Below are positions 586 through 47,300 of a stretch of 64,000 bases of DNA, one piece after another. This stretch comes from Enchytraeus crypticus (Eukaryota > Annelida > Clitellata > Enchytraeida > Enchytraeidae): NCBI GenBank assembly GCA_905160935.1, contig CAJHZI010000193.1, forward strand, positions 582,501 to 646,500, given 5' to 3'. Under the pieces are notes generated by a model. It did not search any database. It saw nothing but the letters and a program-made list of their open reading frames with translations, and was not told where the DNA came from. Within the stretch, counting starts at the first letter, position 1. Every line of letters begins with the position of its first letter. A program made the position numbers and the translations under genes.

Positions 586-644
586 TCGTTAAACTTATCT
601 CTCCGTTACCTTTAATTATTACATATATTTATAATGTTACTATT

Positions 645-735
645 ATTATTGTATTTTTTATTGCCCTGGGCTGTAAAGGGCCCTGGGCTAAAAAATAAGA
701 TAAAAGAAAGACTTTATTATTATTATTAATTGACA
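645..735 (+). repeat. Possible non-LTR 3' end with (TTA)n tail
   Basis: A GC-richer stretch with the inverted motif CCCTGGGC...GCCCTGGGC, ending in a short (TTA)n run, looks like a retroposon 3' end. It is followed directly by a LINE-E fragment. Confidence 0.35.
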
Positions 736-741
736 TTTTTA

Positions 742-965
742 TATTAGGTATATCTCTCTCTTAGTGCACTGACTACTGGCAGGTCCATGGTATATAACGC
801 CTCCACTCTTCTCTGCCTTCCGCCTTCCTCTTCATTTCCATATATGAGTGGGTCTTTAAATCATCTAACATACCTAATCTCGGCCTGCCTCTGCCTCTTT
901 TTCCTTCCATTCTACCCCCTATGAAGGCTCTTAACAGACCTTAATAGAATAGGTAGGATATTAGG
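742..965 (-). mobile_element. LINE-E 3' fragment
   Basis: Starts (CT)n-TTAGTGCACT, then GGCAGGTCCATGGTATATAA and the reverse complement of the ORF2 end. Closely similar to the copies at 2178-2540, 6798 and 19540. Confidence 0.75.
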
Positions 966-1030
966 TATATATTTAGGTATATTTAACTAACTGACTGAAT
1001 GATAGCTCGCTAAACGTATCTCTCAGTTAC

Positions 1031-1318
1031 CTTTAATTTCTATATTGAACTCTGCTGAAGCTGAACCGAATGAGTTCTCGGCTTTGACCACATAGACTCC
1101 ACTCGTCTGTGAGGTGACGCCTTTCAGAGTTAGCTTCGAGGAACCTTCCTTTGTTTCCACGGTGACGCCATTCCCAGTTTTGAGCAGATCCTCAGCTTTG
1201 TACCAGGATACGGAAGGTTCGGGACATCCTGTTATGGATACGGGAATGGAAAGAGTGGAGTTGAGCTTCGCTTGCTGTGTTTCTTTGTACTTGGCGTCGT
1301 AATCTATCGTAGGAGCGG
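1031..1318 (-). CDS. Exon 45: Ig domain 24 (gamma type)
   Basis: [37 protein letters not shown] (core Trp), [16 protein letters not shown], ending IEIKG. Phase 1/1, donor GTAACT. Last exon visible; the gene continues below position 1. A diverged copy of its end and donor lies at about 588-620. Confidence 0.93.
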
Positions 1319-1759
1319 CTAGAATAAATAGCAATCAATGAGCGGCTAAGAAAGGTGTGTATTGAGTTCCAAAAAATTCAACCTCGAGAATGAAAGAGCT
1401 GTATATGAAATATTTAAACAATTTTTTATTTATGAACAAGCAAAGTATCAATTGTCACAAATATTTTATATCCAGAGCTTAAACTAATTGCATACTATAG
1501 TGCTTCATCGTGTTTTGAAACTGATAAAATGATTGCTTGAATAACGGGTTAATAGAAATTAATACATTATCTTACCTTGAACCAAGAGTTTGCACTCAGT
1601 GTTGACCTGCCCTAGTTTATTACTGGCTGTGCACTTGTAGGTGGCCACATCTGAGATCTCTACTTCCTTAATGATCAGTATAACCACGTTAGCGTCCTCT
1701 GACGTGGTTATACGTCCTCCTGTCTTCAACTCCTTGCCGTTCTTTGTCCTGTGATTATA

Positions 1760-1804
<45 letters not shown>

Positions 1805-1824
1805 TATACATGTAGATATATAGG

Positions 1825-1890
<66 letters not shown>

Positions 1891-2127
1891 ACACACATTA
1901 TAGTGAAATGATCAACTACGTTGATATCTATCACTTTTAATACCACATGTTAAATCCGTTAGGCAATTTTGTCCATTTTCTGTGTAGCCAGTCCAGTGTA
2001 TGTCCGAAATTTTACTCTCAGATCAGCGCGGCTGGGATTCGAACCCACGAGGGTTCAATTCTGTCATTTAAAACTTCATGACGTTATCTACACCTCTAAC
2101 CATTGCGCTATTGAAACATTCTAAATT

Positions 2128-2179
<52 letters not shown>

Positions 2180-2537: not shown

Positions 2538-2604
<67 letters not shown>

Positions 2605-5600: not shown

Positions 5601-7944
5601 ATTTATTCTTCTCTAAGTGTCGTGCCTGTTCCAAGCCTGAGCGGTCATCGTCATATTCCTCCATATATCTCTGTTCATTGTTGCTCTGATCATCTCTGTT
5701 TCAGTTAACTGCATCCATTTGCTAAGACTCTTAATAAACGTCTTTCGTTGTCGACCCTTGCATCTTTTGCCATCTATTATTCCTGTCACTACGGTATTTT
5801 CAAATATTTTGTTCCGCATAATGTGTCCTAAAAACTTCATCTGTTGTCGTCGTATTCGGTTCAAAAGGTCACGACAAGTTGACATTCTCTGTAAAACATC
5901 TTCATTTTTAAAGTCATCAATATAAGGTATACGCAGCATTCTTCCATAGAACCGCAAATGACAATTCATACTGATATTAAATCAAGTTTAATAATAAGTT
6001 AACACCATTATAATAGTACCCGTAACCCCAATATAAATTAATAGCCAGTATATATGCCTACTATGCGATCCAAAATGTATCAACAAAACTCCATCTAACG
6101 GCTCACACCAAAATGCAGTAGGTTATTTGTATGAGAATATATAACGTTAAAATTAAAAGACCAACTCTACCTTTTCCAGTTCCCGATTTCAGCGCCTGGA
6201 TTATTTCCACAAAATCGCCAACTCCGGCAGAATTCTGAGCGGCGACGTGGAAAGCGTATTCCATTCCCTCCTGGAGTTTAGTGACGGTTGATTCCAGACT
6301 AGTTGTGATCTCAACCTTATTCCAGGTCTTCTTGCTTGACTCTCTCTGTTCTACTACATATCCTGTTATCTCACTGCCTCCGTCACTCTCCGGCTCCTCC
6401 CACTTCAGAGTGACAGTCGTCTCAGCCAATGACGTGACGGCAAGGTTTCTAGGGGGACCGGGCTTGCCTGGGTATGCCAATACAAAATGTATGATTAGCC
6501 TTAAGATAATTGTAAACCCATAATTATTTTATTATCAACTTACAATTTATAATAATAGCTGCTAGTAATTAGTATCAGCTAGGACCAATTTCTATCTGTT
6601 ATATACCGTTATATTTTTCCGCTTTCAGCATACTTAAGAATTAGAGTTACTTAAAATTAATGGTACCACTACTACTATTATTAATGATAAAACGGCACCT
6701 TAAACTTATTATAGCACTGAATTTGATTAACTTAACTTCAATTTGGGGTAAATCTAATCAAACAAGAAAATTTGCAAAGAAAACTAAATAAATGCATTCT
6801 CTCTTAGTGCACTGCCTACTGGCAGGTCCATGGTACATAACGTCTCCACTCTTCTCTGTCTTCCGCCTTCCTCTTCATTTCCACATATGAGTGGGTCTTT
6901 AAATCATCTAACATACCTAATCTCGGCCTGCCCCTGCCTCTTTTTCCTTCTTTTCTACCTTCTATGACCGCTTTTAATAGACCTTATGCTTATAAATACA
7001 TTATAAAACTAATATTAAAGGCGTTAGTGACCTAAATATTAACTTTCAATAAACTGATACAAAGACATTGCATCAATTTACAATATCTTGCAAACTATTT
7101 AATTAGAAGCTAATAAATACAATTAATAATCAATCTAACCTAGAACGACCAGTTTCACTGTATATGTTGATTTTCCATGCACATTTTCCAGCGTTACTGC
7201 GTATTCACCCGCGTCCTTCTCCACAACCTTACCCAGAGTCAAAGAAGCCTTTCCAGCCACCAGTGTGGTCTTCATCCTCTTAGGGTCTGGAATTGGGGCA
7301 CCATTGTACACCCACGTTGCCTTGGGTTGAGGGTTGCCAGAGAAAGGTACATCAACCACCTTGGAGGCGCCAGAGTTTAGTTTGATAATTTCAGATCCTT
7401 CGGACGAGAGGAACTTGGGTGCCGCTGTAAGAAAAAGATACAAATAATAAGTAGTCAATAGGTAGTAAAATATAATACCGTTTCTTTTAGCAACTTCAAA
7501 AGATGTTTACAATTGAGAGTTTTAAATACCAATATAACCAACATCTCTCGAGCGAAATTTCCTATCTCGCTTCATAATTAGCTCCAATTAATTTATATTA
7601 AGTTGTACACCACCAATACCAGACATTCGTAGTATACGTCTAATTTCTATAGACAATGTAAAATATACACCGCCTAATGTACATGTACTGTCTTAAACTT
7701 GTGAGCCTATCAAATAATTACAAATCAATCATTGACTGCGGCGAGATGAAAGTCGTCTAAACGAGATAAGGAACTGCGAAGGTTAATAGTCATGTTTTAA
7801 TAGGTAATAGGTTTTATGTAAATTTGTTTTAATATAAGAAATCACCATCGTAGTCGTCGTTGTCTTAATCATCAAGAAATATACATATTATTTATAATTA
7901 TATGTATATTGTATAATACATAATTACATGTATATGTATTATAG

Positions 7945-18300: not shown

Positions 18301-21300
18301 TAATGGTATTCAGGTTATTTAGATTGAAATTTTGTAAATTAACAATTGGGGTTGGTTTCTGCTATAATTTATCTACTTTAAATATAGGTAAAACTATATA
18401 CAAAAAAGTTTGGAAAGTTCATTGTGTTACGGGTTAAGCCAGTAATTTGCTGGTAAAATATCCGACGGCGGTTAATTTGGTACTGTCGAGAGCACTTACA
18501 GAAAAATACAAGATTCAGACCTTAACGTTAAATATACTTTTACAATATAATTGAATTGAATCACGTTTATTTCACTTCGGTAAAATCGTACACCAGAGAT
18601 TAAGTGAAAAAGGACACAAAGGCCACGAAGGCACTAACATGTGCCCTAACACATATCGCAAAAAATAAATCATAAACAGCAGTTAAAAGTTTATAGCAAT
18701 CAAGGCATTCAATAGACGCATAATATTACTTACTTCAAAATACCCCTGCAGAATAGCAGGAAAGTAATAAAACTTAATAAAAGGCTAATGTATTTATAGA
18801 TATCAACACAACTTTACTGTTATACATGCCAAGCCAAACTTTATATTTATTGAATAGTAATTACATTAACACAACATAACAAAAATCAGAGTGGCACTGT
18901 CGTCCATGACAACATCTAGCACTATCGAGACAAATCGAAGCGGGTGCGAAAAATGAAGGTTCAAAAACGGTGCCAATTCCAAGATCCAGATAATAAGTCC
19001 AAAGATAAAGAGAATTGCAGAACTGTTGCCAATTCAATACATGTAAGTGGATAGTATAAACACCTCTAAATTAACAGTACATATAAATATTAATATACAT
19101 TTTAAATATGGATGGTATCCAGATTGGGACCTTTCTTTGTCGATAATTATGTTAATATTAATAGTAAATATGCTGGGCTTTCAGACTGTATGACCAGAGC
19201 GATAAAATATGCTACAAATTCTGGACTTAGTTTGAAGGTACATTGCCCTAATTGTGTTATTTATTGTTAATAAATATAGGTAAGAGAATATTTTTATTTC
19301 CATTTAGTTTAAGTAATAACCGTATTTTCTGTCATTCTTTTCCTTAATTTTTATTATTTCATGCTGCGATTATATTACTCCGTATTTTTGGTGAAAAAAA
19401 TCATTCTTTGAAGCACGAAATAAAATATTTTTTATTTGAAAGGTCGGGGTCTGACAAGTTTTTTTAGCATAAATCACAAAATAACTATGCATGACGATAT
19501 TAAATACCTTTAACTTTAAACACTAAATAGAAATATCTCTTCTCTCTCTTAGTGCACTGCCTACTGGCAGGTCCATGGTACATAACGCCTCCACTCTTCT
19601 CTGTCTTCCGCCTTCCTCTTCATTTCCACATATGAGTGGGTCGTTAAATCATCTAACATACCTAATTAAATCATCTAACATACCTAATATACGTAGAAAT
19701 ATAATGAAAACTAAATACCTTTAACTTGAACACTGCTGGTAGTGCTTTCCTCGCCTACCTCCAGCGTATACTCGGCTGAGTCCTCTTGCGCCACCTGGTG
19801 AATGGTCAGAGCCTGGGTGGTGCCATCTACCGAAACGTCGAACTTCTTGTCGACCTTGGGAAGGATCTCAAGGTCGTCCTTGAACCACGTGCCCTTGACA
19901 TTAGGCTTGGATAGCTCAGCCTTCAAGGTCACGCTGTCCCCTTCGGACACCTCCAGAACAGGCTGGACAGGCACTACGATGTGGACGGGGGATTCTGAAA
20001 CGACAGCAAAAGTTTCTTAAATTCATGTTTATAAGAAAAATTAGAGTAATCAGCTTTCACAATTATTGCTTTTAAAAAGTTTTTTCAAGTTTTATTTCTG
20101 AAACGACAGCATTATTATTATTATAATTATAATTATAATTATTATTATTACTATTATTATTATTACTACTACCATTATCATGGTAGTCAGCTAGATATGA
20201 TACTGTATATATTCACTGCATTATCAGTATTATTATTGCTACCATTATCATGGTAGTCAGCTGGATAAGATACTCTGTATCTTCACTGCATTATCACTAT
20301 TATTATTACTACCGTTATCGCGGTAGTCAGCTAGATAAGATACTCTGTATCTTCACTGACGACCAACTTTTCTCGCCATGGATGTAGGAATTGCTGTTGA
20401 GGCATTGTATGTCGATCATGCATCTTGTTTTGTCTTTGCTGAAAAATAAACATATTACTCTACTCCACTCTATGCCCTACAGCAAACGTTCTTGAATTCA
20501 TGTTTATAGGAAAAATTAGAGCAAAAATAAGAGCAATCAGTTTTAAAAGTTATTGCCTTTATAAATCATTTTTAAAACATCAAAATAGTTAGACAGGCGT
20601 TCTGTACACAGAATTGTCAAATCAGTTGCACTAAATGTCGATGAGAAGAACGCAAGCTAACGAAGAGTCCTTTTGTTTTACGATCGATCAATCACTGACA
20701 GGTGAATAGATTCAATGATTTGATAAATTGAATACTTCTCGCTTGACTGATTGATTACTTGATTATCGAGTTAGTAATGGCTGGAGCCAGTGGCGATGTC
20801 GGTAAGATATTCGATCAAAATGTGCGGGGTTCAAATCCTGGGCTCACCCGTCACTGACATCGCTTTCGAGTGAGGAAACTGACGTTAACATTATCAGCTT
20901 TAGCGGATTTACTGATTTATTGATTGACTCACTGATTGACTGATGGATGGATTGAATGACTTATTAATTGACTGATTGGCTGATGGATTCATTGAATGAC
21001 CTAATAATTGACTGATTGACTGTTGGATTGATTGATTGATTAATTGACTGATTGACTGATGGATGGATTCATTGACTGCTAGATTGACTGACTGACTGGC
21101 TGACTGATTAACTGACTGATAGATTGATTGATTGACCGTTGGATTAAGTAACTCACCCTCCACCCACAGCGTTGCCTTGCTCATCACTGTCTCACTGATC
21201 ATCAACGTGTATTCTGCCTCGTCCTCCAGCGTCACCCTCTCTATCATCATTATATGCCTCGGGCCCTCATCAATCAGCTTGACGTGCTCGTCTGGTACAA

Positions 21301-24300
21301 CCTTGACACCGTCCTTCAGCCAGACAGCCTTGAGACCAGGCTTGGAGGTCTCACAGACCATCGTCACCTGCTGGTCCTCTACAGTCTGGGTCTCCTTCAG
21401 AGGTACGGTGATCGTGGCCTCGGCCTCGACCACCTCTGAGGTGACTTCCTCCACAATGGATTGGGTAAGGGTCGCCTCCACCGTCTGTTCCTCAACAGCA
21501 CCTGCTGGGGTTAAAATGATATTGTTATCATGATAACGATAACATTATAATGTAACTTGCATTATCATATTAAAATTATGATAATACAATAATAATGCTA
21601 TTATAACTTGATTATATTAGAATTATATGACACGCTTATAATATTAAATATAATAAGATTATAGAATATACTCCATAAGATTAAATAGCTGTTAGCTTAA
21701 TAACGCCTAATGATAATTAATTAAATTGATTTAATTAATTTATTTGCAATTAAAAATTACTGTTAGCTTTGTTTTGACTAAGTTCATTACAGGAACCGAC
21801 GGAGGTACCTTCTTCAATTTTAATAATGACATTAGTCGAATTACTTGTATCGCAAACTGTATAGCGCTCCAGATAAAAATGTATAGATCACAATATACGT
21901 TAAGATTAATTAAGCTTTAAAGTCGAACATATCAAATTTTCAAAACCCAGTTCACCATTAATTTTATATTGTAATTTGCAGTCAACGAGTACATAAAAAT
22001 TGCATCGCAATCTAGGATATATTTTGTAATAATAAGACTACAATTTGCAAGGTTGGAATTCATCTTCTGTTTACATGACATTGCACAATTTATTTTATAA
22101 AAGATTTAGTAATAATTTAGTTACTAGATAAAACAAAATACAAAGTAAGACAATAAACAAAAACGAAAAAGTTATATTCCGTAGACCTGCCGTAAGGTAG
22201 GAGAGAAAGAGAAGGAGAGGGATAGATAGAGCGAGAGAGAAAGAGAGAAAGATAAAGATAGAAAGAAATAAAGAGAGAGAGAGAGAGAGACAGACACAGA
22301 GAGAAGGAGAGAATTGGAACAGTTAGGTGAAGAGCTCAAATCAAAAGAGTCTACAAAAGTTAGAATCTACTGAACATACATGTACAGCGTTATCACTAAT
22401 CAAAAAGTTAACGAAGATAAAACAGACTTCAAAAATTAATAAAAAACAACATTTATTCTAATACGTTACAATTACTTATGAAACCTACAGACATACAGAC
22501 CCGCTTTAAAATAAATTAAAAGCTAATAACCGTATAATAAGTTAAAAATAAAAGTACTACACGTACATGTAACTTGCAAAATTACATTCTGAGACAGATA
22601 AATCGTCAAAAATAACATCTACACATCAAACTTCATTTGTTCAAAAACATAATTAACATTTACACAAGAGTACAAAACATAATTAGTCATTTTTTGAGTT
22701 CTCAGTATCAAAAAGTACAGATAGAGTCTTTTACAAAAGTTATCTCTAACAGACTGTATTCGGCCAATAATACCGCCGATATCAGTTCAAAAACCTCTCT
22801 ACCATCGCTTCCTGCTCAAAACTCAAATTACGTTGTTAGTATTCTATCGTCATTCTCAAGCCAAACACGCTTTCACGTTGTTTAGCATCAAACTTTTCCG
22901 TTACCATCTTTTGGTTTCTTTGCAACGTCCAGAGTCACTGTAGCATCTTCCTCTTCCAACTTGGACTTCCTCTTCGCCTTTGACGCCTCAAGAACATCCT
23001 CTGCCTCCTCATCCTTCTTTCCAGTCTTCCTCGTGCTCTCCACAGTTGTTTCCAGAGTCACGTCCCGCTTCTTCTTCATTTTTGAGCCCAGAAGGCCTTC
23101 GTCTTCGCTTGGCCTCTCTTTTGACGGAAGAGTTAAAGTAGCTTCTTCTAATTCCTCAACTCGTTTTTCAGGTTCGACTGGGATGACCGGCTCTTGTTTG
23201 ACCTTTTCTGGTTTCTTTATTTTTCCCTGTAAAAGGGAATCATCGTCGGCAACTTTTTTCTTAGATGGCAGGGTTAACGTTCCTTCTTCTTCCATTATTT
23301 CTTCAGATTTCTCGGGTTGTGGTTTTTCTATTTTTCCACGCAAGAAGGCATCATCTTCTTCCTTTTTCTTTTGAGGCATTTCCAAAATGGCTTCTTCCAT
23401 TACTTCGACAGGCTGTTCTGGTTCAACTGGAATTTCGGGTTCTTTAACTGGCTGTGGTTTTTCTATTTTTCCACGTAAGAAGGCATCATCTTCTTCAGGT
23501 TTCTTTTGAGGCATTTTCAAGATGGCTTCCTCAATTACTTCAACAGGCTGTTCCGGTTCAACTGAAATTTCGGGTTCTTTAACTGGTTGTGGCTTTTCTA
23601 TTTTTCCACGTAAGAAGGCATCATCTTCTTCAGGTTTCTTTTGAGGCATTTCCAAGATGGCTTCCTCAATTACTTCAACAGGTTGATCTGGTTCAACTGG
23701 AATTTCGGGTTCTTTAACTGGTTGTGGTTTTTCGATTTTTCCACGTAAGAAGGCATCATCATCTTCAGGTTTCTTCTGAGGCATTTCCAAGATGGCTTCC
23801 TCAATTACTTCCACCGGTTGTTCTGGTTCAACTGGAATTTCGGGTTCTTTAACTGGTTGTGGCTTTTCTATTTTTCCACGTAGGAAGGCATCATCATCTT
23901 CAGGTTTCATTTGAGGCATTTCCAAGATGGCTTCCTCAATTACTTCAACAGGTTGATTGGTTCAACTGGAATTTCGGGTTCTTTAACTGGTTGTGGTTTT
24001 TCGATTTTTCCACGTAAGAAGGCATCATCATCTTCAGGTTTCTTTTGAGGCATTTCCAAGATGGCTTCCTCAATTACTTCCACCGGTTGTTCTGGTTCAA
24101 CTGGAATTTCGGGTTCTTTAACTGGTTGTGGCTTTTCTATTTTTCCACGTAGGAAGGCATCATCTTCTTCAGGTTTCTTCTGAGGCATTTCCAAGATGGT
24201 TTCCTCAATTACTTCCACCGGTTGTTCTGGTTCAACTGGAATTTCGGGTTCTTTAACTGGTTGTGGTTTTTCGATTTTTCCACGTAAGAAGGCATCATCA

Positions 24301-26130
24301 TCTTCAGGTTTCTTCTGAGGCATTTCCAAGATGGCTTCCTCAATTACTTCCACCGGTTGTTCTGGTTCAACTGAAATTTCGGGTTCTTTAACTGGTTGTG
24401 GTTTTTCGATTTTTCCACGTAAGAAGGCATCATCATCTTCAGGTTTCTTCTGAGGCATTTCCAAGATGGCTTCCTCAATTACTTCCACCGGTTGTTCTGG
24501 TTCAACTGGAATTTCGGGTTCTTTAACTGGTTGTGGCTTTTCTATTTTTCCACGTAGGAAGGCATCATCATCTTCAGGTTTCTTTTGAGGCATTTCCAAG
24601 ATGGCTTCCTCAATTACTTCAACAGGTTGATCTGGTTCAACTGGAATTTCGGGTTCTTTAACTGGTTGTGGTTTTTCGATTTTTCCACGTAAGAAGGCAT
24701 CATCATCTTCAGGTTTCTTCTGAGGCATTTCCAAGATGGCTTCCTCAATTACTTCCACCGGTTGTTCTGGTTCAACTGGAATTTCGGGTTCTTTAACTGG
24801 CTGAGGTTTTTCTATTTTTCCACGTAGGAAGGCATCGCCTTCTTCATGTTTCTTCTGAGGCATTTCTAAGATGGCTTCCTCAATTACTTCCACTGGCTGT
24901 TCTGGTTCAACTGGAATTTCGGGTTCCTTAACTGGTTGTGGTTTTTCTATTTTTCCACGTAAGAAGGCATCATCTTCTTCAGGTTTCTTTTGAGGCATTT
25001 CCAGTATTTCTTCCATAGGTTGTACCTCGATTTCAGCCACTACATCTTGAGGCTTATCCTGAGGTTCTTCCACAAACTGTTCCATTTCCATGACCGCCAT
25101 TTGTTCCTGGAGTGGATTTATAGGCTTAGGTTTCTCTTTCTTCTCAACGATAGGTTCTTCTACCTGAGCTATCGGTTCTTCTACCTGAACTATCGGTTCT
25201 TCTACCTGAACTATCAGCTCCTCGGGCTGCTCTATTTTGGCCTCCTCGAGTTTCTTTGGTTTTGGTTTCTCTTCCACTTGGATGGATACTTCCACAACTT
25301 CCTCTGGAAGAGATTCAACAGGCGCTTCCATTTCCACCGTTAGTTCAGTGGATTCCAGCTCTTCCACGCGCTCTGTCGGGCGCTCTGTAAGTTTACATTA
25401 TATATTATTATGTATTGTTTATTTGGAATACCAAAACGAGTACGACAATTCAGTATAATACACGTATATGTCTGTAATATAAAAAATTTTGGTATTAATT
25501 AATTAATTAATTAATTTTATACACCGGTCACCGGCCATGACACGGCTATAGAAATTGTCGGAGGTTATTTTTATAAATAAATTATGTACAACTAGCAATC
25601 GAAAGAGTGGAGTATGGTAACGTAGATTAGCATGTACAATCAATTCCAAAATAGTAGATAAGAATTTACTGAGGTAGCTTTGAGACATCTGATTTGAAGA
25701 CTCTGGCCAAAAATTCTCAGAAATATAAATAGAAATATCAAACATGATTAGAGTGACAATGGGATAACTATTATTAATATTAAATATTCAGTTCAGAAAG
25801 TATGACAATAAGATAATATAATTATAGACATTAGAATTATTGTAAGATTTTATAAATATCTTATAATAATTTACAAAGTAATAAAATAATTATAATAGTA
25901 ATGTATATAATAACAAAATATTTAAATATCGTTATAAATGTAAATATGTTTCGTCAATATAAATATGATTAAACTTCTAAATAATTTGCAATAAAAATTA
26001 ACTGGTAAAACCTAATTGCAACAATTATAGTCATTAGTTAAATATTTTATTAGTAGTACGATGCTTGACGTCCCTGACATCATCCTTGTATGAGAAAATG
26101 GAGGTTAAACCTTTATTATTATTATTATTA

Positions 26131-28483: not shown

Positions 28484-31400
28484 TCTACTATTAGAAACTG
28501 TCAGGCGAGTTAATTACAAAACTGTCTAATTTAATCTCTCTCTCTCTCTCTCTCTCTTGAGTGTTCTGCTAATTGGCTCTTCCATGCAACAGCTCATAAA
28601 TCATAAACATTACTTTTATCATCATCACCATGTCGTTTATTGGCTCATCACGGCTCTGATTATTTAGGCAAGTGACAGAACATACATGTTATAAAATATA
28701 TTACAAGCAACATGAGAAAGGCTACAAAACAGTGACATAGCTCTGTGAGGTAATACCATAATTAACAGCTAGAAATGTGTACTGAAGTCTGAAATACATA
28801 ACTTTCCATTACATTACTAGATACATAAACATATGCAACCAACATCATCTAAAGTTGAGTACCTTGAATAATAACACTAGGATCTAAAGTTGAGTACCTT
28901 GGCTTTTTGTATTTCTATTTTAGCTGAGTCCGTCTCGTCCACCACACTAGCTCTCTTCAGCTCACGCTGATATCTATCACTGTCCGAGGTTTCTTCGAGC
29001 ACTGCCTCCGGCTTCTCCTTCTTTTCCTTCGTCGATCGCTCCAGTTCCGCCCTCTCTCGCTTCTCCAGCTGAATACTTGATCTGCGTCTCTCCATCTGGC
29101 GAACAAAAGAATAAAAACATTTATTTATTTATTTGCTTTAATTTCACCTTTTTCAAACGGTAGACAAATATAAAAGACAAAATTATAAGGCTGTCAAGTG
29201 AATAACAAGTAACATGTCAATATCGTTCAATAGCAAAAAGTGAATAGCAAAAGGCATAAATAAGGAATATTTGACAAGCCACAAATAACAACAACGTATA
29301 ACAACATAAAGAAACATCTGATAAAACACTAACTAACATCAAAGTGTCAAAACAAAAAACAACATATGATAAAATTAAATATCAGCCACATATAACAATA
29401 TATTATATAATATCTGGCAAACAAGTATGAAGTATAAATTTAAAAAGCTAAAAAAGCTAATGTTAACGTCAGTTTCCTCACTCGAAAGCGATGTCAGTCA
29501 CGGAAGAGCCCAGAATTTGAACCCCGCACCTACTGATACGCGGTCGATTATCTTACCGACTTAGCCAGTTCCAAAGCAGCATCATTAAATCTAAGAACCG
29601 TTTAAATTAAGTATTGATTGTCAATTGATTGATTGATTGTCTGATTAATCAGTTGACAAATTTTTAGTCATAAATTAATTTAATCAGTCAGTCGATTCAC
29701 TTACCTAGAGGTCAATCAACAACTCCGTCAAATAAATTAAATAAATCATAATTAAATAAAATTAATAAAGATGAATTAATCGAATTAATTCATTCATCAT
29801 CATCATTATCATCTACCCTTAAATCCCTATGTTTGACCAGGGTCGGGAAATCTAATTAATTAATTAACATTAATTAATATAATTGATTAATTATAATTAA
29901 TTAATTAATTAAGATTAATTAACCTAATTAATTGATTAAGACTGAATGCATACCAGCTCGTACTCTGACTTAGGAGCCATCTCAGTGACCTTCCACTCAT
30001 CTACTGATTGCGCCACCTCAGTGATCTTCTCTTCCACCCCCACCACTTCCTCCTCCAGCCCCTCCACCTTCTTCAGGCTGCCCCAATCCACTTCCGTCTC
30101 CTCCGTCTTCTTAGCGGTCACGATTCTGCAAAACAATCAATCAATCAAGCAATCAATAAATCAGCCAGTCAAATAATCAATCGATCAATCAATCTATCAA
30201 TCAATAAATCAATTAATCAGTCAATCAATTAATTAATCAATCAATCAATCAATTAGTCAGTCAATTAAGCAATTAGTTGACCAGTCAGACAGACGGCTAA
30301 TCAGTCAGTCAATCAGTGAGGCATTCAGTCTGTGAATAGATCAGTCAATTAATCAGTCAGTCAATAGGTCAAACAGCCCATCAGCCAATATGTCAGTCAG
30401 TCATTCAGTAAATAGGTTAGTCGGTTAGTCAGTTAGTTAGTCAGTCGGTCAGTCACTCAATCAGATAGACAGGCGGACATTTGTTATGATTTGCCTATTA
30501 ATTTATATTATATTATAAGATATGATAATGTCAGAAACCAACGTCAGAAAGGGCATTCGGTTGGTGAACGCCTAGGCTCCAGCAATTGCTACAAAAATTC
30601 AAACGAATGGAAAAGTCTCCAATTGGGGATTGGCTAGTGGTTTGGTGTAGGACAGAGAGGATTTGAGACAGTCTATCTGTATCCCGACCATAGTTCAAAC
30701 GGGATTCAAGGGAAGATGACGATGATTATATTATGAGATGTGATGTTATGACGCCTAGGGTAAATTTTAAAATAATAATAATTATAACACCAATAATTAT
30801 AAATGAAGGGTTCTATACACCCGGAGTAATAATGCAAATAATAAAAGTGTTAACTCCTACGTTTTCTTGAGCTATTACTTCCAGTGTGTCGCCTTATGAA
30901 GCCTAAAGTTTAGGTAAAATATGCCTTCTGAGGTAGTTACCCGTTGCCTTCCTCAATGGTGCAGGGTTGAAATCCTGGGCTCTCCCGTCACTGCCATCGC
31001 TTTTGAGTGAGAAAACTGAAGTTAACCTTAGCTTTACCAGCTTTATATAACTAAATATTATACGTTAGACTCGTACGTTTTCTTGAGCTGTGATTTCCAG
31101 TCAGTCACTTCGTCCTCTTTGTCTGTCACCATCAGCGTGGCTGGTGCGGAGTCACTGCCGAACTTGTTCTCGATGGTCACTGTGTACGTGCCTGTGTCGA
31201 CCTTCTTGATAGCGTCCATCTCCATGACGTAGTGCTGCAGCTCTGCGCTGTAGTAGATCCTCGTTCTACTGTCATTCGACAGCTGGCGCCACTTTCCTTT
31301 AGACCACGACACGGTGGGTTCTGGGATACCTTCTACCTGGCAGTGGAAGATGGCCGTCTGACCTGAAAGTATGATAAATGCCACGATATGTTAAGCAACG

Positions 31401-32629: not shown

Positions 32630-34427
32630 GGAGATAGTTAGGGAGAGAGTGAGAGAGAGAGAGCAAAGAACAAACCAGGTTGCAGTGGGAACAGGGAAGC
32701 CGGTTATCTTAGCGACGAACTTGACTGTACCCACGGCTGATGCTTCTACGTTCTGTAGAGGTGTGACTATAACAGGCGGCTGTACAGCTGTAAAATCAAT
32801 CAATCAATTGATCTAAATCGATCACTCAATCAGCTGTACGGCTGTATATCAATTAATCAATTAATCTAAATCAATCATTCGATCAACTGAAGTGAATCAG
32901 TAAATGCATCAATCAATCAATCAGTTGAGATAAGTAAATTAATCAATAAACTGAACGAACGATCAGCAACGATCATCCTTAAATATCCTTAAACATCAAT
33001 TAAATTAAAAATTTCCAGTTAAATAACTATATTTACTTATTTATTTATTTAAGTATAAATTTTATTATCCTTACTAGACTAAATATATGTCGCTAAAATG
33101 CATAGTTTCTGAACATAGAGAAAGGCATTAAAACAGCTTCATAGGATATACATCTATACCTCTATCGCAACATAATTCTATTTCTAAACAATGGTTAAAA
33201 TATTTAATTAAAAAACTAACACAATTTTTTCATCTGGAGGAGTGAAATGAAAAATCTAGAATTAACACCACTTTAATGATTTCGATATGCCCTTTTATAC
33301 ATTGGATTTTTGAATATCATGGATCACAAATAATATTGGAAATATCATAGATATTTCTATCTATTGCACATCAAATATTTGAATAGGTATGGCATGTATT
33401 TCTCATTGAAAATTCGATAGTGATGACATTGTGGTGTAAAAATTATAATTTTCCCTTTATTTACCGGCAAATTACTGGCAAAATTCCCACACAATATTTT
33501 ACCACGTTAAAAACAAACAAATAAATATTCTTTCAAAGGTGAAAATTGAGCACTTTGTATTATTGACAAGGAAAAGTGGAAAATATGGTAAAACTCAAAG
33601 ATTAATTCCACTCTGGTGTTGTGAACATATACTGAATAGGAGCTACTGTAAATGAGCTCTGCCACTGTACCTCATATACTCTGTTACTGTATCATTTCTT
33701 CTCTTCACTAACTTGAGCCCAGCTCTGACTTCCCAATATAACCACTGACTCTACATTAGACGACGGGATTTAACGCACTTGGTTTAGTTACGCGTCAATA
33801 ATCGCAGTTAAGCTACACCGGCCTCGGTTAGGATTTTGTGGGTGACCACATTGGAAGACCGAGTCTTGAGAGTTTTTAAGGTCAAAATCCCAGGGTGATA
33901 GAAGGTTATTCTTAAATCCGCGCCGGCTACAATTGATGTACCATCAAAAGGTAAAGATTACTAATAACCATGTAGAGGAAGAAAGAACTAGGCCCTAAAT
34001 AAGCACCTGTGCTTCCTGATCAAGTGTATTCAGAGATATTCAGTAAGGTCATTTATTAACTCGACCTGTATTTATTAATTAGTATTATTTTCACCATCAC
34101 CTACCTGTGACCTTTAGCCGTGCACTCGCTGACATTTGACCCACTTCGTTGATGGCCTTGACATTGATGATGCCCTCCTCGACCTTACGCACCCCACTTA
34201 TTCTCACCCTATACACCTCACCCTCTCTCTCGTGGCGCACCCTGTCTGACTCCACTAACTGTTCATCACCTCTGTACCACTCCACCACTGGTTCAGGCTT
34301 CCCAACCACAGTCGTCTGGAAAAAGACCTCGTCGAACTCAATGCACTCAACGTTGTCCGGCTTCTTCATGAACTTGGGCATCTCCTTCTTGCCTGTCGAC
34401 AATATATTAGAGCTTCTGATTTAAATT

Positions 34428-34490
<63 letters not shown>

Positions 34491-34985
34491 ATATGTTCGA
34501 GGCACTCAACGTTGTCTGGCTTCTTCATGAACTTATATATATATGTATATAAGTTCATATATTAGTTAAGTGAAAACTTTGGTTTGGACCACGCTATTTT
34601 ATGGATGTGAAACATGGACCTTAAGGAATAAAGATATTAGGAAACTGGTGGCATTGGAAATGTGGATTTGGAGAAGAATGGAGAGGATTAGCTGGACTCA
34701 AAGGTTACAAATGAGGAAGTCCTGGAGAGAGTTGGCACAGATAGACAGTTGATAAATGTATTAAGAAATAGGAAGAAGAGATGGATAGGACACATTATAA
34801 GGGGGAAGGTCTATTAAAAGAGGTCATATAAGGTAGAATGGAAGGAAAATGAGGCAGGGGCAGGCGAGATTAGGTATGTTAGATGATTTAAAGACCCACT
34901 CATATGTGGAAATGAAGAGGAAGGCGGAAGACAGAGAAGAGTGGAGGCATTATGTATCATGGACCTGCCAGTAGGCACTGCATTA

Positions 34986-35099: not shown

Positions 35100-38000
35100 A
35101 CATTTTTTTGAAATGATACATTTAATTAATTTTACTTGAAGGCCTACTTGTAATCCTAATTTACATGTATACAATTAAGATTTATGTATTGTTAGTGTAC
35201 GCTGGATAATATCTATCCGACACTGAAACATGCCTCACGACATTAAAGAAAAACGTAAACATATACTATAGTGAAATGATCAACTATGTTGATATCTATC
35301 ACTTTTTAATACCACATGTTTAAACCATTGGGCAATTTAGTCCATTTTCCGTTTAACCAGTCCAGTGAATGTCCGAGATTTTACTCTCAGATCAGCGCGG
35401 CTGGGATTCGAACCCACGAGGGTTCAATTTACCCCAGGATCTGTCATTTAAAACTTTACCCCTACGCTATTAAGTCATTCATTCAATATATTAAAAATTG
35501 TGATTTAAATTGTGATTTAAATCATCATCATCTTCTTCCCTTGAACCCAAGTTTAACTAGGGTCGGAATACAAATAGACTGTCTCAATTCATCTCTGTCC
35601 TACATTATATCATCCATCAGTCAATCCCCTATTTGAGACTTTGCGATTAGTGATCGTAAGTCGTGATTTAAATATTTACATAAAATTGTACAGTTTTTTA
35701 ACACAGAGCTTGATATTCTAATAAATCTGAAATTATATATTTAACTAATTTTACTTGTAGGCCTACTTGTAATCTTTATTACAAGTATAAAAATTAAGAT
35801 TTACGTAATGTTAGTACAGGCCCAATAATATCTGTCCGACACTGAAACAAGCCCAAAATCAGTCGACCTGGGAGCCGGTGGCGAATTAAATATGCAACTA
35901 ATGATGAAAACACAATGTCGCGAAAAACAAATGGAACTGGTAACAGTGTAATATTTCCTATTATTTCGTATAATAATCGAACAAGAACGAGAGTATCAAT
36001 AACTAGTCAGCATCGGATGAATATTTCACAGTACGCGTTGTTCAACATTTAAAAATGAAATAAATAAGAACAAATAAATAAATTAAAAACTAGAAATTAT
36101 GGTGTTTTAATTTAACCGTTGGTATAGTTGTGTAGGCTACGCATTTTAACCGAAGCATTCAAAAGAAGAAGTTCTTGAAAGATTCGGTACAGACAGACAG
36201 GTAATAAATGTGATAAAAATTAGAAATAAAGCTAGCTAGGACTTATTATATGGGGATGGTTTGCTAAAGGATGTAATAGAAGGAATTATGCAAGGAAAAA
36301 GTGTTAGAGGAAGACCGAGACATGGGATGCTGGATGATCTGATAACAAATTCATATACAAAAATGAAAAGGCAGGCTCAGAGTCGATTGGAAGAGTTATA
36401 TGCCATGGACCTGCCGTTAGGCAGTGTACTGGAAGTAGAATTTAAGTGTCCTAATGTTTACTCACCGATAACTTTCAGTGAAGCTTCATGAACCGCCTCA
36501 CTGGCAGAGTTTTTAGCCACAACTTTGAAAGTGCCTTCGTCACTGGGCGAACAGTTGTCAACAAACAAGGTCGACGTGACCTCTTTCTTCTTCGACCCGT
36601 TCCTCTCGATCACTATGTTGTCCTTTGTTTGCAGCTCCTCGTCATTCTTGAACCTTAGCAACAGAGAAAAAGTATGTAACTTTATCAAACATCATCATCA
36701 TCATCTTCGTTATCACCATTATCGTCGTCGTCGTCGTCGTCGTACGAATAGACCTTCTCCAATCCTCTCTGTCCTATACCGCTATCAAAATCTCTTCCAT
36801 TCGTTTTATAAAATTTTGCAGAAATTTCTGGATCCTCATTCTTGAACTTAAACACAAGAGAAAAAGTAAGTTGTGGTTGGAACGTTATTCTTAAATCAGT
36901 TCCGGCTGCAATTGATGCGTCATCAATAGGCAACGATTACTAACTGCCATGTACAGGAAGGAGGAAATGGGCCTTAAACAAGCATCTGTGCTTCCTGTCC
37001 CAGTGTGCTATTATAGATAATATGAGCTAAAATTTCATATCCACACTAAAATTTCATATCCAAGAAATAATGGACATATTCAAGAAATAATTAGGTGCAA
37101 CTTTACCAAACTCCTTTTAAAGTATGATAAATGAGTCTGTATTGAAATAAAATTAAGATACACACCTATGATAGTAACCATGTGATAGTGGGTAAAGGCA
37201 CCCTATGATACTAACCATGTGATAGTGGGTAGATACACCCCTATGATACTATTCATGTGTTAGTGGGTAAAGGCACCTATGATACTAACCATGTGATAGT
37301 GGATAGATACACGCCTATGATACTAATCATGTGATAGTGGGTAGATACACCCCTATGATACTAACCATGTGATAGTGGATAGATACATCCTATGATACTA
37401 AACATGTGATAGTGGATAAATACACCCTATGATACTAACCATGTGATAGTGGGTAAAGGCACCCCTGTAGCTGATACGTCAAATCTTGCTCTTTGTCCCT
37501 CTCGCACCTCTTTATCAGTGGGTTCTCGAGTTATCAGCACCATCTCCACTTTCTCTGTAAAACAAAGTAATTACAAATTAATAATATTAAATAAACATTA
37601 TTAATTTTTATTTCATTATACTTTAATATTTCTTTATTACATTATATATAACTGAGGAAGGCAACGGGAAACCACCTCAGAAGCTATATTTTTCCCAAGC
37701 TATAGGCTACATAAGGTATGGATAAGGCTTAGACTTTGTGAAGGGATCAACTTGTTTATCTGAGGAGTGCTCTTATGTAGCGAGAAAGCAGACTGAGTAT
37801 GAATAAGTACCTTGAACCTGCCACTTGGCAGTGCACTGAAGAAGACTTTATTATTAAATAAATGCTATTTTAATATTCTATGTATAGTCACGCATGACCA
37901 TGAGGTCATAGCTCATCATGTCAGCTGCATGACATCAGCTACAAATACAATTTTTAAAACTATTCAAATACCATTCTTTCCTATACTATTTGCATTATAT

Positions 38001-38392: not shown

Positions 38393-41300
38393 ATCTCTGT
38401 TTCTCTCTCTCTCTCTCTCTCTCTCACCCTCTCTCTCTCTCACTGCACAATGATAACAGAACATCCGGTATATTTTAAATTTAAATTAAAGACAAAACAA
38501 GCACTAGTTTAAAAATCACCAACTCTAACATAGTGAACACAACACTACACTACCTGGTAGAGTAAATGACAGAAGTATAGCTAGCTAAAAATACAGCCGA
38601 CAACAAATTTAGAAAGGTTTACTTCAAGTGGTGTAAGTGAATACACAAAGCTGATAAACTATTCATGTCTATATCATGCACTGATTACAACAAAAGAAAA
38701 AAATGCCCCTGCCGTTTACGTCGTTTGCAGTGATATCCATTTTGATTAAAAATGATATAATTGAATACGACGAAAATATTTAATGCTTCTATAAAGATAA
38801 GCAATTTATTTTAACATAAAAATATAGGAAAACTGCAATGTCCTTTAAGTACTACAGTTCTGGTGAAACCCGCTTCCATGCAAGTTCGAGACCAAGACCT
38901 GGTCTGGCGGAATTCACCTCTCTAGACAGTTTGGTTGAATAAAAATAATAATAAATAATAATAATAATAATAATAGTAATAGTAATAATAAATAAATGTT
39001 TAACGTCCGTTTCCTTATACAAGGATGATGTCAGGGACGTCCCCCCATCATATGTTACTACAAATCTATTCACCCCAAACGATCTTAAAAAAAATCTGAA
39101 TGGCGCCCTAGATAAAGTCATGCTATAATTAAATGGCCTGTCATCAGTAGAATGATCTCTGTTTTGACCGAAACAACAACAACAACAACAACAGTAACGT
39201 CATCAATGGCAACATATGAAATGACAACGCTATGGAACGAAATCCAAGCTAATAAACACAAATTGTGCATCAGTTTAACACCAGTAGTTTTGTTCAAACG
39301 AAAACATTACTTTAGTATGCCAAATACATAATATATAAGAGATAGTGCTAGAAAAATTAGGCCTAAATAATGTGCAGACACAGTTAGTACTCTAAGACTA
39401 CAACAAATAAGTAATCAAATACTGCAGAAGTGCGCTATGCAAGTTATACAACGACAAAACGTTTGGCTGGAGTCGGTGGCAATGTCGGTAAGAAACTCGA
39501 CGTGTATCAGTATGTACGGGGTTCAAATCCTGGGCACGCCCGTCACTGACATCGTTTTCGAGTGACGAAACTGACGTTAACATTAGCTTTAGTTTTAAAG
39601 GTTTCTGGCATCACAGTGAATACTCTATCAAGTTAGTATTAGTGGCGGATTCAGAAATTTTGTAGAGTGGGGAGGGCGAAATAATTTTTGGGACTGTGCT
39701 CACTTTTTGCTTGATACCATAAGTTCTTAAATGGACCGTTGGCACAGAATTTAGATGTAATTTTCCAATTTTTTCCTCCAGAAATAAAGTGAAGACTCTT
39801 TTGGGGATTTTAACTGTTTTTTTCTGTTAATTTGTTGAGATCTCCAGCCATCCCTATGAAATCAGAAAATTTGAATGTCTTATTAGTGTAGACCTAGAGG
39901 TAAAATGATAAAGTTTTCAATGACAGATCCTGAGGTAAATTGAATCCTTGTAGGTTCGATTCCTAGCCGCGCTTATCTGAGAGTAAAATCTCGGACATTT
40001 ACTGGACCAGATATACGGAAAATGGTCTAAATTGCCTAACGGTTTAAACAAGAGGTATTAAAAGTGATTCGCCTAGTTAGTTGATCAACTCACTATAACG
40101 AGTGTTTACTTTTTTCAGAAGAAATAAATGTGATTAATTGTAATTACAAAGACATTATACTGATAAAGAGAGTACATATTCTGATGTTGAAGCAGATATT
40201 CCTGTCACATATGTGAGATCGGTGGACCTAAGGAAAGGCAGGGGGGGGGGGTAGGTTACCCTACTCTGGATCCGCCACTGGTTAATATACTAATGCTACA
40301 GGAATTACCACAACTACTGAAACATGTCAACGCGTATTCTAATTATAAGAATTATTATTAGAATAAAATATACAGTATAACATGTATACAACATGTCAAG
40401 CTCGAGACAGATATTGGACTTCGAGAAAGCTTTACGGATATCTACAGGTGCTCAGTACTATGGACAAACCTGTATCGGGCTGTTGAACGTCGGCTTCTAC
40501 AGTCTGTTGAGTCTCAGGGGCTGATCGTTAAATTAAAACACCATTATTTCTAGTTTATATTTCTTTAATATTGAAACTGCATTTAGTAGTGTCAATATAA
40601 TCGTTCGAGTCAGTGGTTAAAATTCTGGTTTTGGTGGCCCTTTTAAGTAGTTAATTAGTTGTTAACTTAATCTTCATGACGATAGCTCGAGTGTGTCTAG
40701 TCGTCTTGTAGAAAAGCATGGTATTTCTGTGCATAACCTTCACCGTAAAAGACACTTATCGCCTGCCTAATTCGAGTTAAATGATACCAGAATCAAATGA
40801 TGTCATGAGAATGCAATGTCAACATCTGGAATTGATGCGAGAAGCAATTGAAGGCATGAATGAAGGAATAAAAATTGGAGGAAAATTGTTACAAGCTGTA
40901 AGATTTGTAGATGACCAAGGAATGATAGCGAGCAGCGAGACTGGACTGCAGAAGATAATGGATAGGCTGAATGATAAGGCATTGAAGTATGGAATGGAGA
41001 TTAACATAAAATGACAAAAGTGATGTGAGTGTCCCCGAACAGAAGTGAAGTTATTATTATATAAAATGATACGAGAACAGGTAGGCCCATACGGAGTTTC
41101 AAATATTTAGGTCATAGTCTAACAGATGATGGGAAATGTTAGACTGAAATATGCAGAAAGAGGGCACATGCAAAAAGGAAAGAGGCCTTCGGTAATAGAA
41201 AATAACTTTTAACAAATAGCTTAAAGAAAGACACTAAGTTAAAGAGAGTGAAAATCTTGGCATGGTTCACGAAGTCACTCTTTCTAATTTAAATGAAGTC

Positions 41301-44300
41301 TTAGAGCATTTAAGGCAAATCAGGCTCAAATAACGTAAAAAGTCCGTCCTACTTGACACGATCTACGTTATTATTGCAATTATAGCTTTGAACGACCAAA
41401 TTAACTGAAAATGTAACAATTTCACACCACAATAATGCTCTAAATATTCAGTATTTAGAATATTTGTCTGATATTGAGGACAAGTTGATATAATGATCAA
41501 CACCAAATTATTGCATATACGATTTAAACAAATACCTTAAAAAAACACCGAAAACGAAATTTATTCAGCAGACTAAACTTTGTGGCATTAAACTGTTTCT
41601 GAAATTTGAAGACGATTTAAAAAATTAATTTTAGAAAAACATTTACAAAAGAAGATGCTTTTAAAAAGCGCTTAAACCCCTGAACATCACACGAAGCACT
41701 CAAAACCTAATTACTCATCTATGATTTACTCACCGCTGACAGTTAGCACAGCCTGATGCTCCACGGAGCCCAGGCTGTTGCTAGCGATGCACAGGTACGT
41801 CCCTGACATGCTCGCTGTCACCTGACTGATCGTCAGGGTGTGCACGTTCTCCTTCTGTTCCCGTCGATACTTGAAGGTCGAGGGCACGTCTTTCCCGTCC
41901 TGCTTCCAGGTGACCTTCGGCTCGGGATTGCCCTTGACCTTGACCTTCAGCACCACCGTGGCTTTCTCTTCGATTGTCTAAACAATTTATTTGTGAATTA
42001 AGTAATCAAATAACCGACTAATTATTCAGTTTTAAAATTTATTAATCAGACAATTATCTATCCAATTTTTCTATTTAATACGACAGGTTGTGTTATTTGA
42101 TGACATCGACACAATTAAGAGCAAACACAAACAAATATGCACAATATCAAATAATCGAGATAAAGAGTGTCATGACAAAATATTACACGTTTAGTGATTA
42201 ATATTAACCATTACCATCATTATCTTCTCTTAAATATCAGTTTAAATAAGGTCGAGACACAAATAGACTTTCTCCAATCCTCTCTATCCCACACCATTAA
42301 TCATTACTATTAATAAGTTTTCTAAAATAATAAGTACAGAAATATTTTAGCTCTACCAGATTCTCGAAGACTTCGACAAAGGCTGGTGGTTCCCCTTTAG
42401 GAGGTGACTTCTCTTTCTTCACCTCCTCAGCTTTGGGTGACTCAGGAGCCGGTGCTTCCTCTAAGATAGGCTGCTCTTCTTGTTTCGGTTCTTCGATTTT
42501 ACGCTCTGGCGATCGTTCTACGCAGTAAACAAAATATACTTTCTTTACTTTCTTTATTATCTTTACGGTGATTTGTATTGTGTTTGATTTCTGTTGTACG
42601 AGTTTCTTACTGCCATGAATTTGGTGAAATAAAGATTGCATTTAATTTATATTTATTTAATAATCAGATTTTAATTGGTAACTTCCATGACTGCAAGAAT
42701 GGAAAATGATAAAATTAGTCTATATATTATTCAAATCGATGCCAGAGTAAAATACATATTTACAATTTCAAGTAATTAATCTGATTAATAAATAATTAAC
42801 TAATTAATCCAGTCATCAAGTGACTAAAAAAGTTGATATTTAATGTTAATACACTAAAAACACCATTTTTTGAGCGAAAGGTCTATCTAGAAATATAAGT
42901 ATGGAACCAGTTTCGATTACGTTTCGATTAAGTTTTCTTAACATTTATTAATTGCATCACTGCAACCGACGACCGTGGAAAAGATAAAATTAATCTCATC
43001 ATCATCTTCCCTTGAATCTCAGTGCAAATAGGTCAGGATACCAATAGACTGTCTCAAATCCTCTCTGTCCTATATCAATAAATCCCATATTTGAGACTTT
43101 TCCATTCGTTTAAGTTTTTGTAGCAATTTCTGGAGACTAAGTGCTGGTGTGGATCCTATTGCTTTAGTAGCCTTCTACGACACATGCAGTCACCGGTTGG
43201 TCAATTCTTCAAACAAACCGCAAAATTAATATGATAAAAATGATAATGATAAAATCTAAATAGGCCTATTGTAAAATTAGATGCCAGAGTAAAAACAAAT
43301 TGACAAGTTCAATTAATTATCAGGTTATCAATTAAATAATTACTAATTAATTGATTAGATTCTAAAATTTTCATAGAAAAAGATGATTTATAACAAAACA
43401 ATAGTTAACAATGTAGGCCTACTAACTTTTAACTTGCAGCTTAAAAGAGGCAGCGGCAGAACCAACGGGATTGGTCGCTTTCACAGTGTACTCTCCCGCC
43501 TGATTGGTCGGCACTGATTTCAACGTAAGCTTTGTCCTGTTCTCATCTAGCGTTATAGTAATCAGGTCAGTCTGTTCCAGTTTTGTGGTTCCCTTGTACC
43601 TGGGTAGACAATCATATCTTATTGTGTTTATTTGCTTGTTGTATTTAGAATGTCTCAATAGCGTAGGGGTAACGTCATGAACTTTTAAATAGCAGATCCT
43701 GAGTTGAATTGAACGCTCGTGGGTTCGAATCCTAGCCGCGCTGATCTGAGAGTAAAATCTCTGACATTCACTGGCCTGGTTATACGGAAAATGTTCTAAA
43801 TTGTCTGACGGTTTTAACATGTGGTATTAAAAGTGATAGATATCAACACAGTTGATCATTTCACTAAAATGCGCGTTTACTTTTTTTTACTGACTTTTCT
43901 TAACTTGATAATTACCTAAACCTCCTCACTTTCCTAAAGGCTAAATGAAAGTATACTTCTATACGTCAATAACTGTCATAGCTTAATAGTCAAATTGTTG
44001 TAAGTAGTAGAATTTGTACTCTCCAATCTTTATATTTGTTTTATATTCATCTGCCATGGCGCAGATATCTACATAGTCATTTGTGTTGTAAGTTTTTACT
44101 AGCTACAAATATTATTATTATTTCTTCTTCATCCAGAGTCAAATTTCAGAACTGTTATTATATTGTCCAAGATGCCATACTAAGATGACATACTAAGAGC
44201 AAGAAGCAACCATCTGATAAAGATATGAGCATTATACAAATAATTTTCTGTTAAATGGGTGTTTAATGTTTTAAAATAACTTTCGCTAGTTGCCATTCGG

Positions 44301-47300
44301 AACGTTATAAATAATTTCAAGATACACTCGTATGTGGACATGTAGAGAAAGACGGTAGATAGAGATGATTGGAGGCGTTATATGCCATGGATCTGCCAGT
44401 AGGCAGTGCACTAAGAGAGAGAGAGAGTTACCATTCGACAGATGGCAGCGGTAGACCCGTTACAACGCTCTCAAATGTGCAGTCGTCACCTTCCATTGCA
44501 TTCACATCAGAGGGGCGTGTCACAGTGGGCTTCTCCTTCTTCTCTGTAATTAATTAATTAATTAATTAATTAATGTTATTATCCAATGTTATGATCCTAC
44601 TACTTATTAATTTAAGTTATTATATGTGATTTCATGTTCCTGAGTACAGTTCAATTCGCCCCATTGCTTGCTATTAATCAATCGATTAATTGATCGATGA
44701 ACTGTTCTGTAGATTAGTAGACTAATTATATTACCACTGACGTCTACCTTATGTTTGAAACAAAAGCATAGCATTTAGTGCACAAAATGACTGATTGATT
44801 GATTGACTGATTGATAGATTGATTATACATGTAGATTGACGGACTGAATAATTAATTGAGTGGGTGATTAATTGATATATTAATTGATTTATTGATTGAT
44901 TGATTGATCAATTGACTTATTGATTGATTAATTGATCTATTAATTGATTGATTGATCTAACCTATGACGGAGAGCTTGGCTGAGGTCATGGCCTCTCCCA
45001 CAGGGTTCTTGGCGACGACCTTGACCTCACCGCTGTCAGTCAGTGCTGGATTGAGCAGGGTTAGGTGCAGCACGAAATCTCCATTCTGAGGAGTCAGCTT
45101 CCATTGGACTGCGTCTGTAGAGGTCATCGGCTGATCTTTGTGGTACCTGATGAAACAATCAGAGAGATAATAATTGAATCAAAGATATTAAAGCCAATTT
45201 TCATGAGATTAAAGTGAATCAATTAATCAAATCAATCAGTCAGCCAGTCTAATAATGGGTTAGTAAAGGGCTGATCTATGTGGTACCTGGAGAATCGATC
45301 AGAGAGATAATAATTGAATCAAAGAAACTAAAACCACTTTTTATGAGATTAAATCCAATCAATCAATCAATTAATCAAGTCAATCAATCAGTCAGTCAGT
45401 CTAGTAATGGGTTAGTAAAGGGCTGATCTGTGTGGTACCAGGTGAATCACTCAGAGAGATAATAATTGAATCAAATAGATTAAAGCCAATTTTTATTAGA
45501 TTTAATCCAATCAATCAATATAGAGAATCAATTAATCAAAGCAATCAATCAATTAGTCAATCAATTACTCAATCTATTAATCAAATTAATCAATCAATTA
45601 TTCAGTTAACTGGTCAGTCGGTCAGTCAGTAAGTCAGTCAGTCAGTCAATCAATCAGTTAGACAGTCAATCAGTCAGTCAGTAAGTCAGTCAGTCAATCC
45701 TTCTATTAATAGGTTTTCCATGGATGATCATTGACTTACCTGTTCAGTGAATGCATAGCTTAAAATAAAATACTAAAATAAAATATTAAATAAAGTTTTA
45801 AATAAATTTACAGTATTAATCAAAGAGTTAAGACTTACTAGTCAATATATTCAGCATGTAATTTTATTTGCTTAGATTAGAGGCATCTTGTATATAGGTC
45901 CATATCGAGTGTGAATTCGTCATAACAATATTTATTAACTATTACTATATTTATAATACTATTACATTTATTAACTATTACTATTTATTTATTAAATGTA
46001 ATCTTGACTTTAGTTTTATTGAGGACAAATTAATTATTTTATTTTAAGAACTTATTTTCAATCGTAAACATAAAAAGGAAACACTCTTCAAAATTAGTAA
46101 ACGCTCTAAGTAATATTGGTATCGATAACATTTCAAATAAAAATAAATGGACTGGCTAGCTGGTCGAATGGATTGCGAGTTTAAATAAGCAAAAGGTCAT
46201 CAGTTTGAATCTAAGTCAGATCAACTCTTACAGTGTCCTTACGTTAACTTACGGAAACGTACGTTACACTTTTACCAGTAGTACAGACTGCATTGTAGTA
46301 CATTTAACTACTAGGTCTTCATGGTGGACACTGGAAAACATCCTTACTGCATTTATAAAAAGTTTACTTTTCTAGATATTTGAAAACGTTCTGTTACAGT
46401 CGAATACACAATCAAAATACACAGTCAGAAAAAAGACTAAAGAAACTTAAAAATCTACGGGACATGACTGTATTGTTGAGTTATTAAATAGCTAAGACAT
46501 TAATATGGTTAATGAAGAAAGTCTATTCGTATCTCGACCCTACTTAAACTAGGATTCAAGGGAAGATGATGATGGTGATGATGATTAAATATGCTTAATT
46601 ATTGTTGCTAACCAAGTTATTTCTGGCTGTGGGCTTCCCTTTACTCTAGCCTCGAACACAATCTTAACACCCTCCTTGGTTTCCTTGCTGACCAGTTTCT
46701 GAGTGAAGACCGGTGGCGACATCTTGTCTGTAAAAATAACGACAGAATTCTGAGTAAATAGAAAAAAAATAGATTTAACACAATTACTTTTTTTAATTAA
46801 CAGAATCCACGTCATAATGCTGACCATTCTTATATTCTGCCCAATGGCATGTCCAGAGTCTATTATTTGTCAATCTGCTTAATACCAGTATCAAACTACT
46901 TATCTCATTAGTACTTATCTTACTACTTATCAGCAAAGTCAGAAGGGCATTCGGTTGGTGAGAGCCTAGGCTCCAGAAATTACTACAAAATTGTTCTAAT
47001 CCCGACCTTCGTTAAACTGGGACTCAAGGGAAGACGATGATGATGACGACGATGTTGACGATGAAGATGATTTACATTGTTTTATTTATTTTATATTTCT
47101 ATAAAGTGAAGATCGGGTACATCAAAGATCAGCCCTAAGTCCATATGTGTTTATTTTGATTATGGATGACCAATAAATTGATGACATGGAATAGTCAATA
47201 GGTTAAAAAGAATTTGACAGCAATTTTATGTTCTTTTGCTTTCTTTTAATTCTTCTACACCAGTTTTCATTCAAGTTTATCGACAGTTCTCAGGCCAAAA

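Follow-up and report, generated by a model that had tools for sequence, protein, structure and literature searches.

Pieces of exon edges are repeated in the adjoining introns of a giant titin-like gene of Enchytraeus crypticus. This animal genome is rich in local duplications, and the copies are very probably ordinary members of that set, sampled because they happen to reach an exon. Exon edges are not special in this respect, because 6 of 71 edges have a local copy against 10.4% of windows elsewhere in the genome, and the 24 usable edges of the 18 exons that follow in the gene have none. The analysed DNA (the window) is a stretch of 64,000 nucleotides and corresponds to contig positions 582501-646500 in a 524-Mb assembly of 802 contigs.

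The minus strand of the window holds a part of the gene, with 46 exons according to a simple gene finder whose output was curated. This model is a prediction only, and the exons are numbered in transcript order. It derives from 66 predicted exons. Nineteen were removed by eye as repeat-derived or very weak, and a long repeat exon predicted in two halves was joined into one. The repeat-derived frames removed include RERER frames and frames with a sequence of 12 residues. Likewise, the frames of a dispersed family at 799-918, 2219-2339, 6842-6970 and 19587-19652 (one example has 31 residues) were predicted as exons and removed. We presume, from its resemblance, that this family is a piece of a retroelement. 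An earlier setting of the gene finder, with a low exon penalty, gave 222 exons; it was an overprediction and was discarded. The model contains the exon 40470-40520, apparently uncounted in the first-pass annotation of this DNA, which had 45 exons. Exons 12, 17, 18, 19, 24 and 45 of that annotation are E12, E18, E19, E20, E25 and E46 here.

Ten translated exons or exon parts, out of the 46 exons, were submitted to Pfam, and eight matched the immunoglobulin I-set or fibronectin type III; the two low-complexity translations among the ten had no match. For the two exons tested, the closest solved structures by sequence were titin chains. Rfam gave no matches at gathering scores. The gene extends past both ends of the window: the flank at lower positions has Ig/Fn3-like exons, and the flank at higher positions has long frames rich in repeats. 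Contig positions 646501-666500, upstream of the Ig region, show very long repeat-rich coding frames, which may represent a PEVK-like part of the protein. Within the window, a long coding array with a 135-base (45-residue) unit lies inside one exon at 23315-25003. This exon is open in two frames in turn because the unit near 23949 is one base short compared with its sister units at 23679 and 24623. The missing base is either an assembly error or a real variant. An intronic minisatellite at 56662-57699 has a 30-base unit, about 35 copies and much internal inverted complementarity.

The first-pass annotation reported pieces of six exons repeated in the adjoining introns, and all six are present. 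Beyond them we found two clear copies, at the donors of E7 and E23, and two weak ones, at the donor and the acceptor of E29. The nine exon-touching pairs are 78-100% identical over 19-90 alignment columns. They are in direct orientation and spaced 35-421 bases apart, so that each has a proximal donor within 5 kb, as in repair-mediated duplication. The exons, copies and arrays described below are given on the minus strand, at positions of the window, and the exons follow the gene model.

Exon E46 (1031-1318) is an Ig domain with an I-set match, and its low edge is the donor. The copy of this donor at 582-624 corresponds to 1003-1045, with 37 of 43 positions identical. It keeps the GT, with a score of 4.1 against 5.3 at the true site. 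Between the two copies, 735-943 is dispersed-repeat sequence, and a direct repeat of 13 bases (at 741 and 958) occurs close to either end of it. At E25 (28898-29095), the donor copy 28847-28866 is identical to 28882-28901 in all 20 bases, including the GT. E23 (31077-31362), absent from the earlier list, has a donor copy at 30836-30890 that matches 31053-31106 in 43 of 55 positions; the GT is kept and dispersed-repeat sequence lies in between. E7 (51726-52129) is also absent from that list and is an Ig domain. Its donor copy at 51557-51602 corresponds to 51690-51735 (42 of 46 identical, GT kept). A search for a second allele or contig, made with the E7 exon, gave one match place in the assembly. 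At 52148-52499 there is an intronic duplication composed of two local pairs; a dispersed element at about 52290-52461 apparently interrupts its second copy.

In E20 (34105-34392), an Ig domain, the copied piece belongs to the exon interior: 34497-34534 corresponds to 34338-34375, with 35 of 38 identical. A near-palindrome at 34527-34558 (30 of 32) overlaps the end of this copy, and it might be of the type left by a template switch. The acceptor copy of E19 (36466-36653) is located at 36837-36871 and matches 36643-36677 in 29 of 35 positions; the aligned AG is lost. Two edges belong to tandem arrays. At 37440, the donor of E18 (37440-37554) lies in the unit nearest the exon of an array at 37156-37466, with a 38-base unit in 8.3 copies and GT in the four further units found. 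The acceptor edge of E12 (44962-45146) is one unit of a 140-152-base array at 45129-45519, with 2.7 copies when the unit is taken as 152 bases; two further copies of the acceptor edge are present and one of them has the AG. Finally, E29 (19719-19994) presents weak copies of both edges. The donor copy 19501-19519 corresponds to 19712-19730 and keeps the GT, and the acceptor copy 20096-20110 is a 15-base match that keeps the AG. The earlier count of four copies with a recognisable donor or acceptor agrees with E46, E25, E18 and E12.

We made two kinds of comparison to judge the frequency of these copies. Within the window, 74 of 92 exon edges were usable (18 were too masked), and 8 of the 74 have a local copy at score 19. 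When exon edges were compared with neighbourhoods over 4 kb distant, the same score was reached in 2 of 2220 cases. With long minisatellites taken out, 7.0% of 5132 intronic windows have a score-19 copy within 1 kb, compared with 8/74 edges (P = 0.14). When they are left in, the intronic background is 11.4%. Within 500 bases the edges exceed the introns (5.6%, again with long minisatellites out) about twofold, with P = 0.05, which is our strongest indication of an excess. At the level of events, the window has 34 local-duplication clusters. Four are purely coding repeats and were set aside; of the remaining 30, 21 touch no exon and 9 do, where 7.7 would be expected (P = 0.35). Intronic windows at most 400 bases from an exon had a copy within 1 kb in 8.5% of cases and deeper ones in 4.5%; for a copy within 500 bases, the values were 7.9% and 1.6%. 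This near-exon surplus is partly composed of the edges' own partner copies, which these figures do not separate out. A further contribution would come from slower decay of pairs in which selection acts on one copy.

The control from the same genome consists of 20 further 10-kb stretches (20 of 20 fetched), submitted to the same masking and scan as the window. They are unannotated stretches chosen near pattern matches, and some may be genic. They show 69 local-duplication events at a score of at least 19 in 150.4 kb of unmasked sequence, or 0.46 per kb. The non-exonic part of the window has 19 events in 29.7 kb, or 0.64 per unmasked kb, although single stretches range widely. A copy within 1 kb was found for 10.4% of 6684 sixty-base windows of the control and for 12.0% of 1190 in the non-exonic part of the window. 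When repeats were masked with the control stretches too, 71 of 92 exon edges remained usable (21 were too masked), and the donor copies of E23 and E29 dropped out of the scoring edges. The resulting 6 of 71 (8.5%) does not exceed the 10.4% of the control (p = 0.84). The 18 predicted exons that follow in the gene have 24 usable edges (of 36), none of them with a local copy, and pooled with the window the count is 6 of 95.

The claim that the copies exceed chance therefore stands against random sequence (2/2220 versus 8/74) and fails against other DNA of the genome. The first-pass annotation had itself named an equal density of copies elsewhere in the genome as the observation that would refute its pattern, and this is what the 6684 control windows show. 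The pattern is thus not confirmed as a gene-wide property: other DNA has the same copy rate, and the next 18 exons have none. The proposal of replication slippage or patch-like repair in this locus named a fitting class of mechanism. Its specificity for edges and for the locus is not borne out by the control, by the next 18 exons and by the 21 of 30 events that lie off exons.

The arrangement of the copies helps to weigh the explanations. In the window, 21 events are direct and 8 local pairs are inverted at score 19, the latter all in AT-rich or minisatellite arrays. None of the local inverted pairs touches an exon, in a scan that is blind to microsatellite-masked sequence. The palindrome at 34527-34558 is outside this count because the scan does not see such sequence. 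The arrays of E18 and E12 are head-to-tail direct copies, as in tandem duplication or minisatellites. Tandem arrangement nevertheless seems rarer among exon-touching pairs, which counts against simple local duplication: by an automatic rule, 1 of 7 of them is tandem, compared with 53 of 69 events elsewhere; with E12 and E25 judged by hand it is 3 of 7 (p = 0.07). In 8 of the 9 exon-touching pairs the copied segment straddles the edge, against 3.6 under uniform copying (P = 0.0015). It might suggest, together with the twofold excess within 500 bases, that duplication in this gene is drawn to exon edges or to splice signals through a locus-specific habit of slippage or patch repair. We consider this very unlikely, given the lack of excess over other DNA of the genome, the absence of copies in the next 18 exons and an event count as expected. 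Straddling would be predicted by tandem duplication, unlike copy-and-paste, since a unit must cover the edge for one copy to end up in the exon and the other in the intron.

A different reading concerns the single spaced copies. They could be target duplications that arose together with an insertion in a single step, where a wide staggered break or a retroelement insertion was filled in with 35-125 bases of target on each side. Among the 11 spaced pairs of the window (gap of at least 80 bases, leaving out two low-scoring pairs at 20050 and 41207), element or microsatellite sequence makes up 67% or more of the gap in 8, a level reached by 2.9% of random intervals. The 67% cut-off was set after seeing the values, and E46 lies at it. 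The control points in the same direction, with 2 of 15 spaced pairs passing the cut-off against 0.5% of random intervals. Without dispersed and microsatellite sequence, the gaps of E7, E19, E23 and E25 shrink to 9, 12, 1 and 15 bases, which makes these pairs near-tandem. Those of E29, E20 and E46 retain 43, 57 and 124 bases and are not clearly so. The copies of E23 flank element sequence almost directly, as this reading predicts, but part of its second copy is itself counted as dispersed, and it is the least certain case. On the other hand, the elements of E46 and E29 lie between their own short direct repeats (13 and 9 bases), well inside the copies, and so point to later insertion; the 9-base repeat of the E29 element has two further occurrences in the window. 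No element separates the copies at E25 or E12, and E18 is a plain array. Insertion in one step thus seems rather unlikely as the origin of the spaced copies. Less probable still is a narrower version, in which breaks near exons would be mended in one step by wide staggered fill-in and capture of a mobile element, leaving the edge on both sides of the insert and creating decoy sites.

As the first-pass annotation noted, decoy splice sites do lie beside real ones. Donors with GT are found in six introns (at 610 for E46, 28863 for E25, 30861 for E23, 51593 for E7, 19508 for E29 and within 37156-37440 for the E18 array) and acceptors with AG in two (at 45286 for E12 and 20097 for E29). Sites were scored with a weight matrix from which the exon concerned was excluded. 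The copies might have been kept for function, as decoys that regulate splicing or as a source of unproductive isoforms with stops. GT is present in all five single donor copies as well as in the further E18 units, and every donor extension tested reaches an in-frame stop within 2-6 codons. However, two bases would mostly be kept anyway at 78-100% identity, and early stops are usual in intron sequence. The AG is lost in two of four acceptor copies (one of E12 and that of E19). Roughly 140 intronic GTs (5.3% of 2738) score at least 4, a level of many true donors, and the decoys are few compared with these high-scoring GTs elsewhere. A functional role would be the least probable of the explanations considered.

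Ordinary local duplication remains the preferred reading, and the following course would account for the copies. Stretches of about 20-150 bases would be duplicated directly throughout the genome by slippage, unequal exchange or break repair. Some duplications would start in an intron and extend into an exon by anything from a few bases to about 30. The exon would stay undamaged while its edge is duplicated in the intron, and selection would therefore tolerate such copies. Two duplications (E18 and E12) would have expanded into tandem arrays, and other copies would have been separated later by the insertion of mobile elements or the growth of microsatellites. The order of events is an inference, and so is the choice of slippage or repair as the molecular step. 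Copies of exon edges may also be recognisable for longer, since one of the two is under selection.

These copies are ordinary instances of kinds already described, namely linked duplications with partial exons and minisatellites that alter genes. Pace et al. (2009, PMC2671141) described repair-mediated duplications by capture of proximal DNA in 824 human cases; four have partial exon/intron donors, and the acceptors are often in introns. The copies are closely linked in that set as in ours, and the donors include splice sites and pieces of exons. Conversely, the human insertions have at least 50 bp and breakpoints read against other primates, whereas several of ours are shorter or plain tandem arrays. 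De Grassi and Ciccarelli (2009, PMC2812944) reported internal tandem repeats and minisatellites that modify gene structure, with units of 30 bp repeated 4 times on average. Likewise, E18 and E12 have units of tens of bases, few repeats and an overlap with gene structure. Their repeats vary between human paralogues, while ours are seen in a single sequence. Lehmann et al. (2010, PMC2891723) described the gain of introns from coding sequence duplicated in tandem, and a further case is reported for the potato RdRp (PMC4974935). In common with the cases of Lehmann et al., we see tandem duplication of sequence with motifs like splice sites. Unlike them, our copies lie inside introns, between exons of domains of known type, and form no new intron; no intron of the 46-exon gene model is bounded by two copies.

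The decoy donors, above all those of the E18 array, are worth a look with RNA, as gene prediction can be misled by them. More generally, a duplication-rich genome yields copies of exon edges in introns by sampling, and caution is needed, since only a control from the same genome reveals it.
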